This document shows, one piece after another, positions 37,171 through 54,670 of a stretch of 64,000 bases of DNA. The first letter of the stretch is position 1. Each line of letters starts with the position of its first letter. Source of the stretch: a bacterium (lineage in GTDB: Bacteria > Orphanbacterota > Orphanbacteria > Orphanbacterales > Orphanbacteraceae); the NCBI GenBank assembly GCA_025782575.1, contig JALGYY010000017.1, positions 361,892 to 425,891 on the forward strand. The letters run 5' to 3'. A model generated the notes under the pieces. The model did not search any database. It worked only from the letters and a program-made list of their open reading frames with translations, and was not told the origin of the DNA. The position numbers and the translations under genes were made by a program.

Positions 37171-40100
37171 TCACATGGACTCACTGTCAAGAACGTCGCT
37201 CAGCAGCCCTCCCTCCTTGCCGAGTGATTCGATTCGTTCCACGGTGATCGTTCGAACACCGTAATGCTCCTCGATTCGGCCGGTCACACGGAATGGTCCC
37301 GCTCCACGGGTGGCCTGCATGAACCGCGTGTAAACCGGCGGAAAGAGCGTGCACTCGAATAAGCCATGCTCATCTTCCAGCGTCAGGAAGAGCATGACGG
37401 TCTCTTTTTTCGTCCGGACGAGCCTGGATGCGTCACGAATCCCGACAATCGTGATCCGCCGGCCGGCCGGCCCTGCGCCGAGCACCCGCGAATCCGCACA
37501 TCCGGCACACCCATCGGTCGGCCGGATCAAGGCGACCGGGTGCGCGGAAACAGCGAGTCCCAGAATCTCCATCTCGTATCGCAGGCACTCCTGCAGCGCC
37601 ATGTCGTTCAGCATGGGACGATCACTCTCGCCTCCCCCCTCCTCACCGGGAAACATGGTCGCCTCATCGAAGAGAGCTTCCCGAACCATGGTGGGCGCCA
37701 TCCCGTCCGCCGGTACGATTCCGACTCCCTTCGCTCTTCCCCATGTTTTTCGCCGTGTTTCGTATGTTGCGTAGAGCTCCCAGAGAAGCTCGGTTCGCCG
37801 CGTGCCCGTCCAATCGAACGCGCCCACAAGGACGAGATGCTCCGCATCCCGCCGGGGGGGCATCACCCGCCGGAGAAACTGGGCAAGCGACCGGAACGGG
37901 CGGGCGTCATAGATCCGCTCCCGGATAACGGCGGACAGATCGCGCACCCGTCCGAGGCCGACCCGGATTGCCGCATCATGTATCGCGTCGCCGGAAACGG
38001 ATCGAGTCCTGCCGGCCGGCTTCTCATCGGCCCGTTCCCATGTGAACTCCTCCCCGCTCTGATTAACGCAAGGCAAACGGATCTCGATCCCCCGGCGCCG
38101 GGCTTCTTCAAGATGAACCCGTGTGGGATACATCCCCTGATGATTATTGAGAAGCGAAACAGCATGCTCCACAGGGTGATGGGCCTTCAGCCAGGCGGTC
38201 TGGTAGGCGAGCACACCGTATCCCGCAGCATGGGCTTTGCAGAAAGAGTAGCTCGCAAAACGGGCAATCATACGCCACGCCTCTTTGGCAAGGCCGATAT
38301 CCACCCCTCGCTGCACGGCAAGACCGAGAAACGAATTGGTGAGCGCCCGCATCGAGTCTTCGTCCCGCGCCTCCCCGATCCGCCGCCGAAGGAGATCGCC
38401 CTCCTCGAGGCTGATCCCCGTCACCCGGCTCGCGACCGCCATCACATCTTCCTGGTAGAGCGGAATGCCGAGTGTCTCTTCCAGTAGATCGCCAATCGCC
38501 TTCTCCAGCGCCGGATGGCCGTAACTGACCGGTTCGATCCCCCGGATTCTACGAACGTAACGCTCTTTCATGCCGGACGACGCCGGCCCCGGCCGGATGA
38601 GCGAGTGCGCGGCGATCGTCTTCCCCATCGTCTTCGTGCCGATCATGCGTAGCAGGTTGCGCATGCCGGGTGACTCCACCTGGAAGCAGCCGAGCGTCTG
38701 TCCCGTGCATAGCAGTTCCGCCGTTCGGGGATCATCGGGCGGAGCGTTTTCGATATCGATCTCTATGCCCCGAGTCTTCTTGATGAGGGCGACCGTCTCC
38801 CGGATCGTCGAGATCGCCCGATTACCGAGGAGGTCGATCTTGATGAGGCCGATCTGCTCGATCTGATGCATTTCGTACTGCGTGACCACGATCCCCTTGG
38901 TCGCCTCTTCCAGCCCGGTCAGCCGGGCGAGCGGCCGGGCGCCGATCACCACCCCGCCGCAATGGATGCCGAGATGGCGCGGCGCCCCCCGCAGACGTTC
39001 GGCGATCTCGAGCACACCCCGATAGGGCTCCTGGTCGCGGGGATACTCGGCGAGCAGCTTCGACCGGGCAAAGCAGGCGGCGAGCGTCTCTTCGGTCTCC
39101 CGGGGAATGCGCTTGCTCACCCGGTCCACCACCTCGGTAGGCACACCGAACGCGCGGGCCACATCGCGGAACGCCGACCGGCAGTGGTAATGGTTGTGCG
39201 TCGAAATCATCGCCACCCGGTCCCGGCCATAGGTCTCATAGGCGTACTCGATCACCTCGTCCCGGCCACGCCAGCAGAGATCGACATCGAGATCGGGCCA
39301 GTCATCCCGCAAAGAATTCAGGAAGCGCTCGAAATAGAGCCGGTATGCGATCGGATCGACACTCGTGATTCCGAGCAGATACGCGACAAGCGAACTCGCC
39401 CCCGAACCGCGCCCCACCACAGGAATCCCCCGGGACCGGGCGAAACGGACGAGGTCGCCAACGACCACAAAGTACGCAGGGAACCCCATCTGATGGATCG
39501 TCTCCAGCTCCCGCTGGAGTCGGGCGGTGATTTCCGGCGTGATCTCGGAACCGTAACGGCGACGAAGCCCGTCATGAGCCAGCCGGTACAGGTACGAGTA
39601 AGGGGTCTCCCCCTCGGGCAGGGGATAGCGGGGAAAGATCGGTTTCGATCGCAGGAGATCGACGTCACAAGCCTCCGCGAGCGCCCGGCTGTTCGTGAGC
39701 GCCTCCGGGACCTCGCGCAGGAGTACCGCCGCCTCTTCGGGCGCGCGCAGGTACCCCTCCGCCGAAGCGAGGTCGGCGGCCGTTACTTCCGTGACGATCC
39801 CCCGGGTGCGAATCGCGGCAAGTACCCGCTGAAACGGGCCCTCTCCCCCTGATCCCATGGACATCGCTCCCCCGGCGACCAGCCCGATTCCGAGCCGGCG
39901 GGCCGATTCCCGCCTGAGAGCAAGCGACCGGGGCCCGATCCAGAGAGGGAGCTCCATCCAGAGAGCGCCGGGAACGAGATAAGAGCGGAGCGCCGTAGCC
40001 AGATGCTCCGATTCCACAAGAACGAAGAGTCCCCGGCCATCCCGACCGATCGCCCGGACGAGATCGAACTCCGGGTCCAGCATTCGCTCCGAGACCACCC

Positions 40101-40485
40101 GGCAGACGTTCCCGTAGCCGGTGAGATCGCGGGCGAGGAGAACGGCGCGGTCGATACAGCCCGGGGCCGCATGAACCCTTTTACCCGAGCCGCTAGCGCC
40201 GTCGCCGCCCTCACTCTCGAAGCGCCGGTGGTGTGGGATGATCGCCCCGCCGCTTCTACCCTCCGCGATCGGCCGCTCTTCCACTTCGGCGCCCGTAATC
40301 GGCCGGATTCCCGCCGCCCGGGCGGCCGTCTGGAAGAACATGGCCCCGTAGAGATTGTTCCTGTCCACCAGGGCCGCCCGATCACAGCCGGCCCCGGCGA
40401 GCCGCTCCACTAAACACTCGATCGAAACCGTGCCGTGGAGCAGGGAAAAGTGACTCTGCAGGTGAAGGGGGACGTAAGGTTTCAT
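37171..40485 (-). CDS. dnaE2: Error-prone DnaE2/ImuC-like DNA polymerase III alpha subunit
   Basis: 1104 residues, near the DnaE2 length. Start ATG at 40485 follows CTGGAG; an upstream frame to 40923 is antisense to the promoter region and the giant gene. The order is PHP domain, palm with catalytic aspartates in PDLDVDL (D400, D402), then GAPRHLGIHCGGVVI, the finger block RPGPASSGMKERY, helix-hairpin-helix, and an OB domain (GRRITIVGIRDASRL). The PHP domain begins PLHLQSHFSLLHG, where a metal-binding H-x-H would be H-x-Q, so PHP exonuclease activity is doubtful. Its promoter carries the 26-bp motif shared with the DNA polymerase IV operon, which supports a damage-induced translesion role. 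Confidence 0.85.
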   Translation of the reverse strand: MKPYVPLHLQSHFSLLHGTVSIECLVERLAGAGCDRAALVDRNNLYGAMFFQTAARAAGIRPITGAEVEERPIAEGRSGGAIIPHHRRFESEGGDGASGSGKRVHAAPGCIDRAVLLARDLTGYGNVCRVVSERMLDPEFDLVRAIGRDGRGLFVLVESEHLATALRSYLVPGALWMELPLWIGPRSLALRRESARRLGIGLVAGGAMSMGSGGEGPFQRVLAAIRTRGIVTEVTAADLASAEGYLRAPEEAAVLLREVPEALTNSRALAEACDVDLLRSKPIFPRYPLPEGETPYSYLYRLAHDGLRRRYGSEITPEITARLQRELETIHQMGFPAYFVVVGDLVRFARSRGIPVVGRGSGASSLVAYLLGITSVDPIAYRLYFERFLNSLRDDWPDLDVDLCWRGRDEVIEYAYETYGRDRVAMISTHNHYHCRSAFRDVARAFGVPTEVVDRVSKRIPRETEETLAACFARSKLLAEYPRDQEPYRGVLEIAERLRGAPRHLGIHCGGVVIGARPLARLTGLEEATKGIVVTQYEMHQIEQIGLIKIDLLGNRAISTIRETVALIKKTRGIEIDIENAPPDDPRTAELLCTGQTLGCFQVESPGMRNLLRMIGTKTMGKTIAAHSLIRPGPASSGMKERYVRRIRGIEPVSYGHPALEKAIGDLLEETLGIPLYQEDVMAVASRVTGISLEEGDLLRRRIGEARDEDSMRALTNSFLGLAVQRGVDIGLAKEAWRMIARFASYSFCKAHAAGYGVLAYQTAWLKAHHPVEHAVSLLNNHQGMYPTRVHLEEARRRGIEIRLPCVNQSGEEFTWERADEKPAGRTRSVSGDAIHDAAIRVGLGRVRDLSAVIRERIYDARPFRSLAQFLRRVMPPRRDAEHLVLVGAFDWTGTRRTELLWELYATYETRRKTWGRAKGVGIVPADGMAPTMVREALFDEATMFPGEEGGGESDRPMLNDMALQECLRYEMEILGLAVSAHPVALIRPTDGCAGCADSRVLGAGPAGRRITIVGIRDASRLVRTKKETVMLFLTLEDEHGLFECTLFPPVYTRFMQATRGAGPFRVTGRIEEHYGVRTITVERIESLGKEGGLLSDVLDSESM

Positions 40486-40537: not shown

Positions 40538-40566
40538 AGAATACCCCACATTTGTGTAGTAGTCAA
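40538..40566 (-). promoter_or_regulatory. Putative SOS-type promoter/operator of dnaE2
   Basis: Read on the minus strand: TTGACT (40566-40561), a 17-base spacer, then TATTCT (40543-40538). The spacer holds ACTACACA-A-ATGTGGGG, whose centre CACAAATGTG is palindromic apart from one centre base. The same sequence, 25 of 26 bases, is upstream of the small gene-dinB operon at 54645-54670. A start site about 7 bases past the -10 would leave a leader of about 45 bases to the dnaE2 ATG. Promoter geometry is seen; the LexA role is inferred. Confidence 0.7.
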
Positions 40567-53062: not shown

Positions 53063-54268
53063 CTACCTGGTCAAGCTCGGCGTGCGCAGCACAAAACCGT
53101 GATCGCTTCGTTCGAGCCGGTCGATGAGATCGAGGCTTTTCCCCGCCACAACGGCCCCGAAACCGAATCGATCCCGCACCCGATCGAGCGCCCCGGTCAG
53201 GCTCTCTTCCCTCCTCGCCCCTTCCTCCTCATAGAGATCGGTCTGCCTTGCCCGTGGAGGTCCGATATTCGTCAGAGAAACGCCGGCCAGATGAAGGGCT
53301 TCCCGCCTCGTCCAGATTCGGTCGAGCAACCAGAGCGCCATGTGGAGCACCGGCTCATGCAGCGATGTGGGGCAGGCTAACGACTTTGATTTCGATTCAC
53401 CCCCACCCCCGGCATACCGGATCCTCACATGAACGGTCCGTGTCTCGAGACCGAGCTCCCGCACCGTTTTCACCGCACGTTCGCTCAAGTAGGAGAGCAT
53501 TCCCTCCACCTCCCGGCGATCACTCGTGTTCACGTGGAAACTCGTCTCTCGCGATACTGATTTCGGCATCTCCTGCTCTTCGATAACCGCCGAATCCTCT
53601 CCTCGACATCTCCTGTAGAGTATTTCTCCGTGACTCCCGAAAAGTCTGGTCAACGCTTCGGCCGGCACCGCACGAAGTTCGGCGATCGTATTGATCTGGA
53701 GCTTTTCGAGTATTTCCCCATAACGATAGCCCACCCCGGGGAGATCACGGACCGGAAGCGGCCCGATGAACACGGCCTCTTCTCCCGGCGGAATCGCTCC
53801 GAGTCCGTCCGGCTTGACCGATTTCCCTGCGAGCTTGGCAATCATCCGTGACGAACCGACACCAACTGTGACCGGAAGTCCTGTTTGAGCGCGCACCGTT
53901 TTTCGCAGCTCCCGCCCCACGCTCTTGCCTGAGCCGTGAAGTCTCCTCGTGCCGGTCAGCTCCACATACGCCTCGTCCAGAAACGTCTCCACATTGGGCG
54001 AGATGGCCCGGCATAGATCAAATATCTGATCGGCGAATGCACGATACACCGGATAGGAGCCATCCAGAATCACCAGGTCCGGGCATATGCGACGCGCCCG
54101 GGAGAGGGGCATCGCGTTATAGAGCCCCCGACGGCGCGCATCGTAACAGCAGCTCGCGATCACACCATTCCCGACCGCCACCGGCCGGTTCCGAAGCAAC
54201 GGATTCCGCGCCTTCTCTACCGAAGCGAAAAACGCGTCAAAGTCTACATGCAGAATCTGAAGACTCAT
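53063..54268 (-). CDS. dinB: DNA polymerase IV (Y-family)
   Basis: 401 residues with the full Y-family plan. Palm: ILHVDFDAFFASVEKARNP with the first catalytic Asp, and ETFLDEAYVELTG with the second acidic pair (near residue 100). The thumb helix-hairpin-helix contains LPGVGYRYGEIL, and the little-finger domain follows. It copies past damaged bases at low fidelity. It lies 69 bases downstream of a small gene whose promoter carries the shared 26-bp motif, so both are probably damage-induced together. There is no ImuB-like loss of the catalytic acids, so this is a real polymerase. Confidence 0.93.
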   Translation of the reverse strand: MSLQILHVDFDAFFASVEKARNPLLRNRPVAVGNGVIASCCYDARRRGLYNAMPLSRARRICPDLVILDGSYPVYRAFADQIFDLCRAISPNVETFLDEAYVELTGTRRLHGSGKSVGRELRKTVRAQTGLPVTVGVGSSRMIAKLAGKSVKPDGLGAIPPGEEAVFIGPLPVRDLPGVGYRYGEILEKLQINTIAELRAVPAEALTRLFGSHGEILYRRCRGEDSAVIEEQEMPKSVSRETSFHVNTSDRREVEGMLSYLSERAVKTVRELGLETRTVHVRIRYAGGGGESKSKSLACPTSLHEPVLHMALWLLDRIWTRREALHLAGVSLTNIGPPRARQTDLYEEEGARREESLTGALDRVRDRFGFGAVVAGKSLDLIDRLERSDHGFVLRTPSLTR

Positions 54269-54337: not shown

Positions 54338-54592
54338 TCACGAGTCGAGCATGACGAAGTCGAGATGCCAGCTCATATCCGAACTGTCGAGGTGCATCTG
54401 GTAAACATCGCCCGCCTCGACCGAAACTGAAAAGTAGAAGAACTTCCGCCCCCCCTCCCGGTCCTCCCAACGAAGATTTACTTTGGTGACTTTGTGCTTC
54501 TGGTTGCTCCGCCGGAAAAGGATCGGTGTTACTTTCGCTCCTTCGAAGTCAGCCCGAACTTTGATTCGTTCCTGGATCGATTCGACTCGCAT
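54338..54592 (-). CDS. Small protein (DUF6504-like) upstream of dinB
   Basis: 84 residues from the ATG at 54592, which follows AGAGGACC. The longer open frame to 54964 runs through the promoter motif and the repeat element and is not real. The protein is beta-rich and basic: TPILFRRSNQKHKVTKVNLR, a central aromatic strand RKFFYFSVSV, then DVYQMHLDSSDMSWHLDFV. The layout recalls DUF6504 proteins that accompany Y-family polymerases in other bacteria, but I match it only by pattern and context. It shares an operon with dinB and is likely an accessory of translesion synthesis. Confidence 0.65.
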   Translation of the reverse strand: MRVESIQERIKVRADFEGAKVTPILFRRSNQKHKVTKVNLRWEDREGGRKFFYFSVSVEAGDVYQMHLDSSDMSWHLDFVMLDS

Positions 54593-54641: not shown

Positions 54642-54670
54642 AATATACCCCACATATGTGTAGTAGTCAA
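54642..54670 (-). promoter_or_regulatory. Putative SOS-type promoter/operator of the small gene-dinB operon
   Basis: On the minus strand: TTGACT (54670-54665), a 17-base spacer, then TATATT (54647-54642). The spacer contains the perfect palindrome CACATATGTG flanked by ACTA and GGGG. It matches the dnaE2 promoter at 25 of 26 bases. The predicted leader to the ATG at 54592 is about 43 bases, almost the same as for dnaE2. A repressor at this site would block RNA polymerase directly. Confidence 0.72.

Follow-up and report, generated by a model that had tools for sequence, protein, structure and literature searches.

A probable SOS box shared by translesion polymerase and lexA promoters in a Candidatus Eisenbacteria lineage

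Two translesion polymerase units of a Candidatus Eisenbacteria genome, a dinB operon and dnaE2, are preceded by promoters that contain the same 20-bp dyad, with the family consensus TACTANACAWATGTNTAGTA, and this dyad is very probably the LexA operator (SOS box) of the lineage. Both promoters lie in a single 64-kb stretch of DNA, which was analysed as a whole and is referred to here as the window. The assignment is made because the dyad is present, positioned and conserved at these promoters and is associated with lexA as well as with translesion polymerase genes. LexA binding, repression and damage induction at the dyad would follow from this arrangement of sequence elements. As far as our literature search reached, this would be the first SOS box found for the Eisenbacteria phylum, and with it the damage regulon of uncultured genomes can be picked out straight from the sequence, a hydrolase operon and an apparently dead DnaE among its members. 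The comparisons below use seven Eisenbacteria genomes of one family (G000-G006), of which G000 is the genome of the window, together with genomes of other phyla.

Results

A common dyad in the dinB-operon and dnaE2 promoters

As read from the sequence, the promoter ahead of the small gene-dinB pair is TTGACTACTACACATATGTGGGGTATATT on the minus strand (54670-54642), and that ahead of dnaE2 is TTGACTACTACACAAATGTGGGGTATTCT on the same strand (40566-40538). A first-pass annotation of this DNA had reported a 26-base sequence common to both promoters with one difference, which was confirmed: the first 26 bases on the minus strand, TTGACTACTACACA(T/A)ATGTGGGGTAT, differ at one position, and the distance of 17 bp between TTGACT and TATNNT likewise holds at both. 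The CACAWATGTG near-palindrome that it described is present, but the full dyad is longer, covering 20 bp as TAC-N3-ACAWATGT-N3-GTA at both sites. Its placement of the promoters upstream of the start codons also stands, with the proposed 43-45 bases refined to -10 hexamers that end 49 nt (small gene) and 52 nt (dnaE2) before the ATG. In the sites aligned, the dyad occupies the spacer between the -35 and -10 hexamers and touches both of them, a geometry that would suit a repressor excluding RNA polymerase. Three parts of the dyad are invariant across 22 aligned sites: ACA, the G in TGT, and the GT on the -10 side. Coordinates of these and other features are collected in Table 1.

Table 1. Positions of promoter elements, genes and associated loci (plain numbers refer to the window; C and L numbers denote contigs and loci)
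Feature	Position	Strand	Remarks
20-bp operator dyad, dinB operon	54646..54665	minus	TACTACACATATGTGGGGTA
-35 hexamer, dinB-operon promoter	54665..54670	minus	TTGACT; read from sequence
-10 hexamer, dinB-operon promoter	54642..54647	minus	TATATT; 17-bp spacer; read from sequence
Small gene, first in dinB operon	54338..54592	minus	84 aa; ATG at 54592
dinB, Y-family translesion polymerase	53063..54268	minus	401 aa; Pfam PF00817
20-bp operator dyad, dnaE2	40542..40561	minus	TACTACACAAATGTGGGGTA
-35 hexamer, dnaE2 promoter	40561..40566	minus	TTGACT; read from sequence
-10 hexamer, dnaE2 promoter	40538..40543	minus	TATTCT; 17-bp spacer; read from sequence
dnaE2, error-prone C-family polymerase	37171..40485	minus	GRGS and PDLDVD intact; ATG at 40485
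lexA, own genome	L029:1730-2338 (C13:400732-401337)		second gene of unit
DnaE paralogue, own genome	L029:2376-4988 (C13)	minus	also L052, L053, L054, L055, L078
Region of two extra LexA-like S24 proteins	C13:571605-578374		near 573k and 576k (L009, L010)
Hydrolase unit, own genome	C2:783500-789500 (L082, L184)		also L036, L080, L081, L085
recA upstream region	L030:3256-3560		also L057, L058, L059

The product of dinB is 75% identical to the DinB of a Candidatus Eisenbacteria MAG, which is the closest named record, and that of dnaE2 has the Pfam domain PF07733 in addition to PHP, fingers and HHH domains. The orthologue of the small gene in G001 gave a weak match to DUF6504 (E 0.004, below the cut-off). 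In a genome of another phylum (G140; L214, C120), lexA, a gene resembling the small gene of the window and dinB stand together behind one box, which indicates that the pairing of the small gene with dinB is kept outside Eisenbacteria too.

The dyad at the lexA operon

The genome of the window contains one family-conserved lexA, and the promoter of its unit bears the box TTTGACGCAGGCTACAAATGTGTAGTATTGT. All six family genomes with lexA have the box at the head of the lexA operon, the unit of G001 being apparently split over contigs; lexA was not found in G006, an assembly that is 91% complete, though the box is present there. The suggestion of the first-pass annotation that the shared sequence marks a LexA regulon thus gained support, the same operator standing before the lexA operon of the window's own genome and of five other family genomes. 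A PWM trained on six polymerase sites only, with lexA promoters excluded from training, scored the six lexA promoters at 13.5-25.8, against 12.8 for the best of the non-site 300-bp windows tested. Within the 22-site alignment, the lexA-operon sites have a nearly perfect half on the -10 side and a degenerate half on the -35 side, which is consistent with weaker self-repression.

The conserved LexA has a LexA DNA-binding domain (PF01726) and an S24 domain (PF00717), and alignment with E. coli LexA finds the Ala-Gly cleavage site and the Ser and Lys residues kept; judged by these domains and aligned residues, it is of the canonical, cleavable type. We propose that a LexA dimer on the dyad TACTANACAWATGTNTAGTA in the -35/-10 spacer would block RNA polymerase, that DNA damage would lead through RecA filaments to self-cleavage of LexA at the Ala-Gly bond, and that this cleavage would induce dinB, dnaE2, the operon of the hydrolase and second Y-family polymerase, a GIY-YIG nuclease gene and lexA itself.

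Two extra LexA-like S24 proteins are encoded on the same contig as lexA (Table 1), in G000 only among the family genomes, and possibly belong to a mobile element. Their presence could be taken to mean that the dyad is bound by some other damage- or stress-responsive repressor or co-regulator, such as an XRE protein or another S24 protein, and not by the conserved LexA; other damage regulators exist beside LexA, for example DdiA in Myxococcus (PMC12288472). We consider such a regulator very improbable, since the extra pair is confined to one genome while the box occurs in all seven, and since the box heads the conserved lexA operon and is found before lexA of other phyla too, with a matching half-site core. 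Counted against LexA as the cognate regulator were the boxless recA genes of six genomes, the G006 assembly without lexA, the degenerate half-sites at lexA and the two extra LexA-like proteins.

A DnaE paralogue ahead of lexA

The gene before lexA, in an apparent operon with it, encodes a DnaE paralogue of 837-931 aa that has PHP, finger and HHH domains. The two paralogues tested gave no match to PF07733, and all five that were aligned are missing the loop with the PDLDVD aspartates and have lost GRGS and KIDLL. Outside the family, the closest LexA is that of G178 (L178), where the gene ahead of lexA encodes a DnaE with PF07733 retained; in G072 an HHH_6 protein was the only one seen in that position. 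These patterns suggest that a dnaE-lexA pair decayed into a non-catalytic partner, and the paralogue may be a C-family counterpart comparable to ImuB of the Y family.

The recognition helix and residue 41

The recognition helix reads RSTKGVVDHL in the Eisenbacteria LexA and RSPNAAEEHL in that of E. coli, with Lys for Asn at position 41; the altered-specificity mutant LexA408 reportedly has changes at residues 40-42. In other LexAs whose half-site could be recognised, Asn41 was accompanied by G in 14 cases and by A in 3, and Lys41 by A in 4 and by G in 1 (Fisher p = 0.02), in a small sample uncorrected for kinship, with both the operon start and the lexA start examined for three Lys41 genes. 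As a lead only, Lys41 tends to accompany the A-form half-site and Asn41 the G-form, and a change of specificity, Asn41/G versus Lys41/A, that could be tested directly is suggested by this small set of naturally occurring helices and boxes. A more extended proposal is that Lys41 LexAs form a cross-phylum class with the operator CTANAC-N4-GTNTAG instead of CTGNAC-N4-GTNCAG, a single helix residue switching the half-site G to A, and that in Eisenbacteria this LexA is co-expressed with a catalytically dead DnaE paralogue whose role in a translesion complex is that of a non-catalytic partner; taken jointly, these two ideas are speculative and we would sooner doubt than accept them.

The regulon in Eisenbacteria

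The seven genomes were scanned with a family-wide model built from 12, later 19, sites. With the refined model, the genome of the window has at least five units with the box, namely the dinB operon, dnaE2, the lexA operon, the hydrolase operon and the GIY-YIG nuclease gene, after which the E-value rises from 0.005 to 0.156 among the 150 of 283 first-look candidates that were scored, so that the list for this genome may be incomplete. Among those candidates, all matches were SOS-type units; an occurrence at many unrelated genes, which the first-pass annotation had held would speak against its reading, was not seen. A site at C7:26067 of G000 had E 0.185 with the first model, was missing from the second list and was treated as chance.

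The hydrolase operon consists of an FrsA-like hydrolase gene, a chorismate-binding-enzyme-like gene and then a second Y-family polymerase gene at C2:784067. Across the seven genomes, all 13 Y-family polymerase genes are in box-headed units, two of them (G003 C13 and G004 C152) by inference across contig breaks, and the box precedes dnaE2 in three (the genome of the window, G001 and G002). At the FrsA-like alpha/beta hydrolase gene a LexA box was seen in 6/7 genomes, with the second Y-family polymerase ~1-3 kb downstream. In two genera, a weak box also stands before a small-protein gene that is apparently the same in both (G006 C177:9341 and G001 C22:153826; L195, L206), and by eye this protein resembles the metal-dependent DinB superfamily.

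The LexA box is absent from the recA upstream regions of the six family genomes in which these are readable, and the same regions contain no convincing alternative palindrome. LexA operators usually, if not always, precede recA. The annotation's expectation that a genome scan would return lexA, recA and other repair genes was therefore borne out for lexA and repair units and failed for recA, while the different palindrome that it had envisaged at lexA and recA as evidence to the contrary was seen in convincing form at neither, lexA having the same box. The recA upstream regions have a common TGCTATACT-like extended -10. In G000, G002, G003 and G005, a GTGGGAGC stretch is also found farther upstream.

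The dinB-operon and dnaE2 promoters both have good -35 and -10 hexamers and are nearly identical within the genome, as would be expected of recent duplicates of one strong promoter in which the dyad has no regulator. They share no sequence outside the -35 to -10 interval, however, and the alignment of promoters from related genomes, which the first-pass annotation had proposed, finds the dyad kept from genus to genus and from gene to gene, with variation at the other promoter positions. Core-promoter spacers are not normally conserved, and on these grounds a recent duplication with an unregulated dyad is most improbable.

Genome-wide and cross-phylum searches

In the 4.88-Mb genome, the dinB-operon and dnaE2 sites are the only matches to the 17-mer ACTACACAWATGTGGGG with fewer than three mismatches; other matches, with three mismatches, were no more frequent than in the control and did not reappear with the refined models. 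The pattern TTGACTACTANACAWATGTNNNGTAT, with 3 mismatches allowed across 60 genomes, had matches in five family genomes and in one outsider (G030). The G030 site lies 69 bp before lexA and is the lexA promoter, which ruled out a chance match near a PAPS-reductase-like gene. The Eisenbacteria-only model was run on 193 genomes (186 unrelated and the seven of the family) and gave 8 matches in the unrelated set, five before lexA (G085, G177, two lexA genes of G140, and G007), one before recA (G082), one before a Y-family polymerase gene (G007) and one unclear (G163). A chance match, or a motif general to promoters of this GC-rich genome, could account for the -35 and -10 parts, which are ordinary promoter hexamers, but is refuted as a reading of the dyad, and keeps next to no probability, in the face of 2 sites in 64 kb against 0.04 expected (ACTACACAWATGTGGGG, up to three mismatches), 0 matches of the reversed pattern in 60 genomes, the confinement of genome-wide matches to SOS-type units with an E-value gap among the candidates scored, and the cross-phylum results.

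Comparison with known LexA boxes

Many of the 84 LexA genes examined in other genomes have TACTG(A/C)ACA-N2-TGT(G/T)CAGTA in their upstream regions, a sequence which contains GAAC-N4-GTTC plus outer arms as in the E. coli box. By its spelling, the Eisenbacteria box is a variant of this wider class, the chief change being A for G at position 5. The first-pass claim of a new box is upheld in that the sequence is of neither the CTGT-N8-ACAG nor the GAAC-N4-GTTC type, and has to be qualified in that it retains the AC-N4-GT core and 20-bp geometry of the GAAC-N4-GTTC and TACTG...CAGTA boxes that precede lexA genes in other phyla. In the mostly open literature searched, no paper naming LexA in Eisenbacteria was found and the box spelling was not found described; an earlier description elsewhere is possible.

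The full E. coli 20-mer has outer TACT...AGTA bases and a length of 20 bp, and the Eisenbacteria box resembles it in both respects and in being a promoter dyad. It lacks the E. coli-type CTGT/ACAG half-sites, the consensus being CTAN...NTAG, and thus differs in having CTA-N instead of CTGT and a conserved inner ACA-N2-TGT. The E. coli CTGT-N8-ACAG box is a promoter dyad that blocks RNA polymerase (PMC3323433; PMC3108266); other described LexA motifs are GAAC-N4-GTTC, GTTC-N7-GTTC and TTAC-N3-GTAA (PMC3323433), all of them different from the Eisenbacteria box, and 17 had been reported by 2021 (PMC8565304). With GAAC-N4-GTTC, the LexA box of Firmicutes and Actinobacteria (PMC3323433), the Eisenbacteria box has in common an inverted repeat and an AC-N4-GT core in the same register, and many lexA promoters of other phyla, which read TACTGAACA-N2-TGTTCAGTA, are GAAC-N4-GTTC with longer arms. 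It is nevertheless not of this type, the half-site being ANAC instead of GAAC (A mostly stands in place of the G, and the base after it is unconstrained) and the outer TACT/AGTA being conserved.

The SOS boxes of Bacteroidetes, CTAA-N5-TTAG and GGA-N5-TCC, are bound by non-canonical LexA proteins (PMC8565304). The units under their control include dinB, dnaE2 and a GIY-YIG nuclease that has exonuclease homology (PMC8565304), much as is proposed for the Eisenbacteria box. The Eisenbacteria LexA is, in contrast, canonical by sequence, and its predicted box differs from both Bacteroidetes boxes in half-sites and spacing, having CTANAC and GTNTAG 4 bp apart. Like the LexA box of Balneolaeota (PMC7739468), it belongs to a sparsely studied phylum and was found by comparing genomes, but it is an inverted repeat whereas the Balneolaeota box, TTACACATATTTTWTACATA, is a direct repeat.
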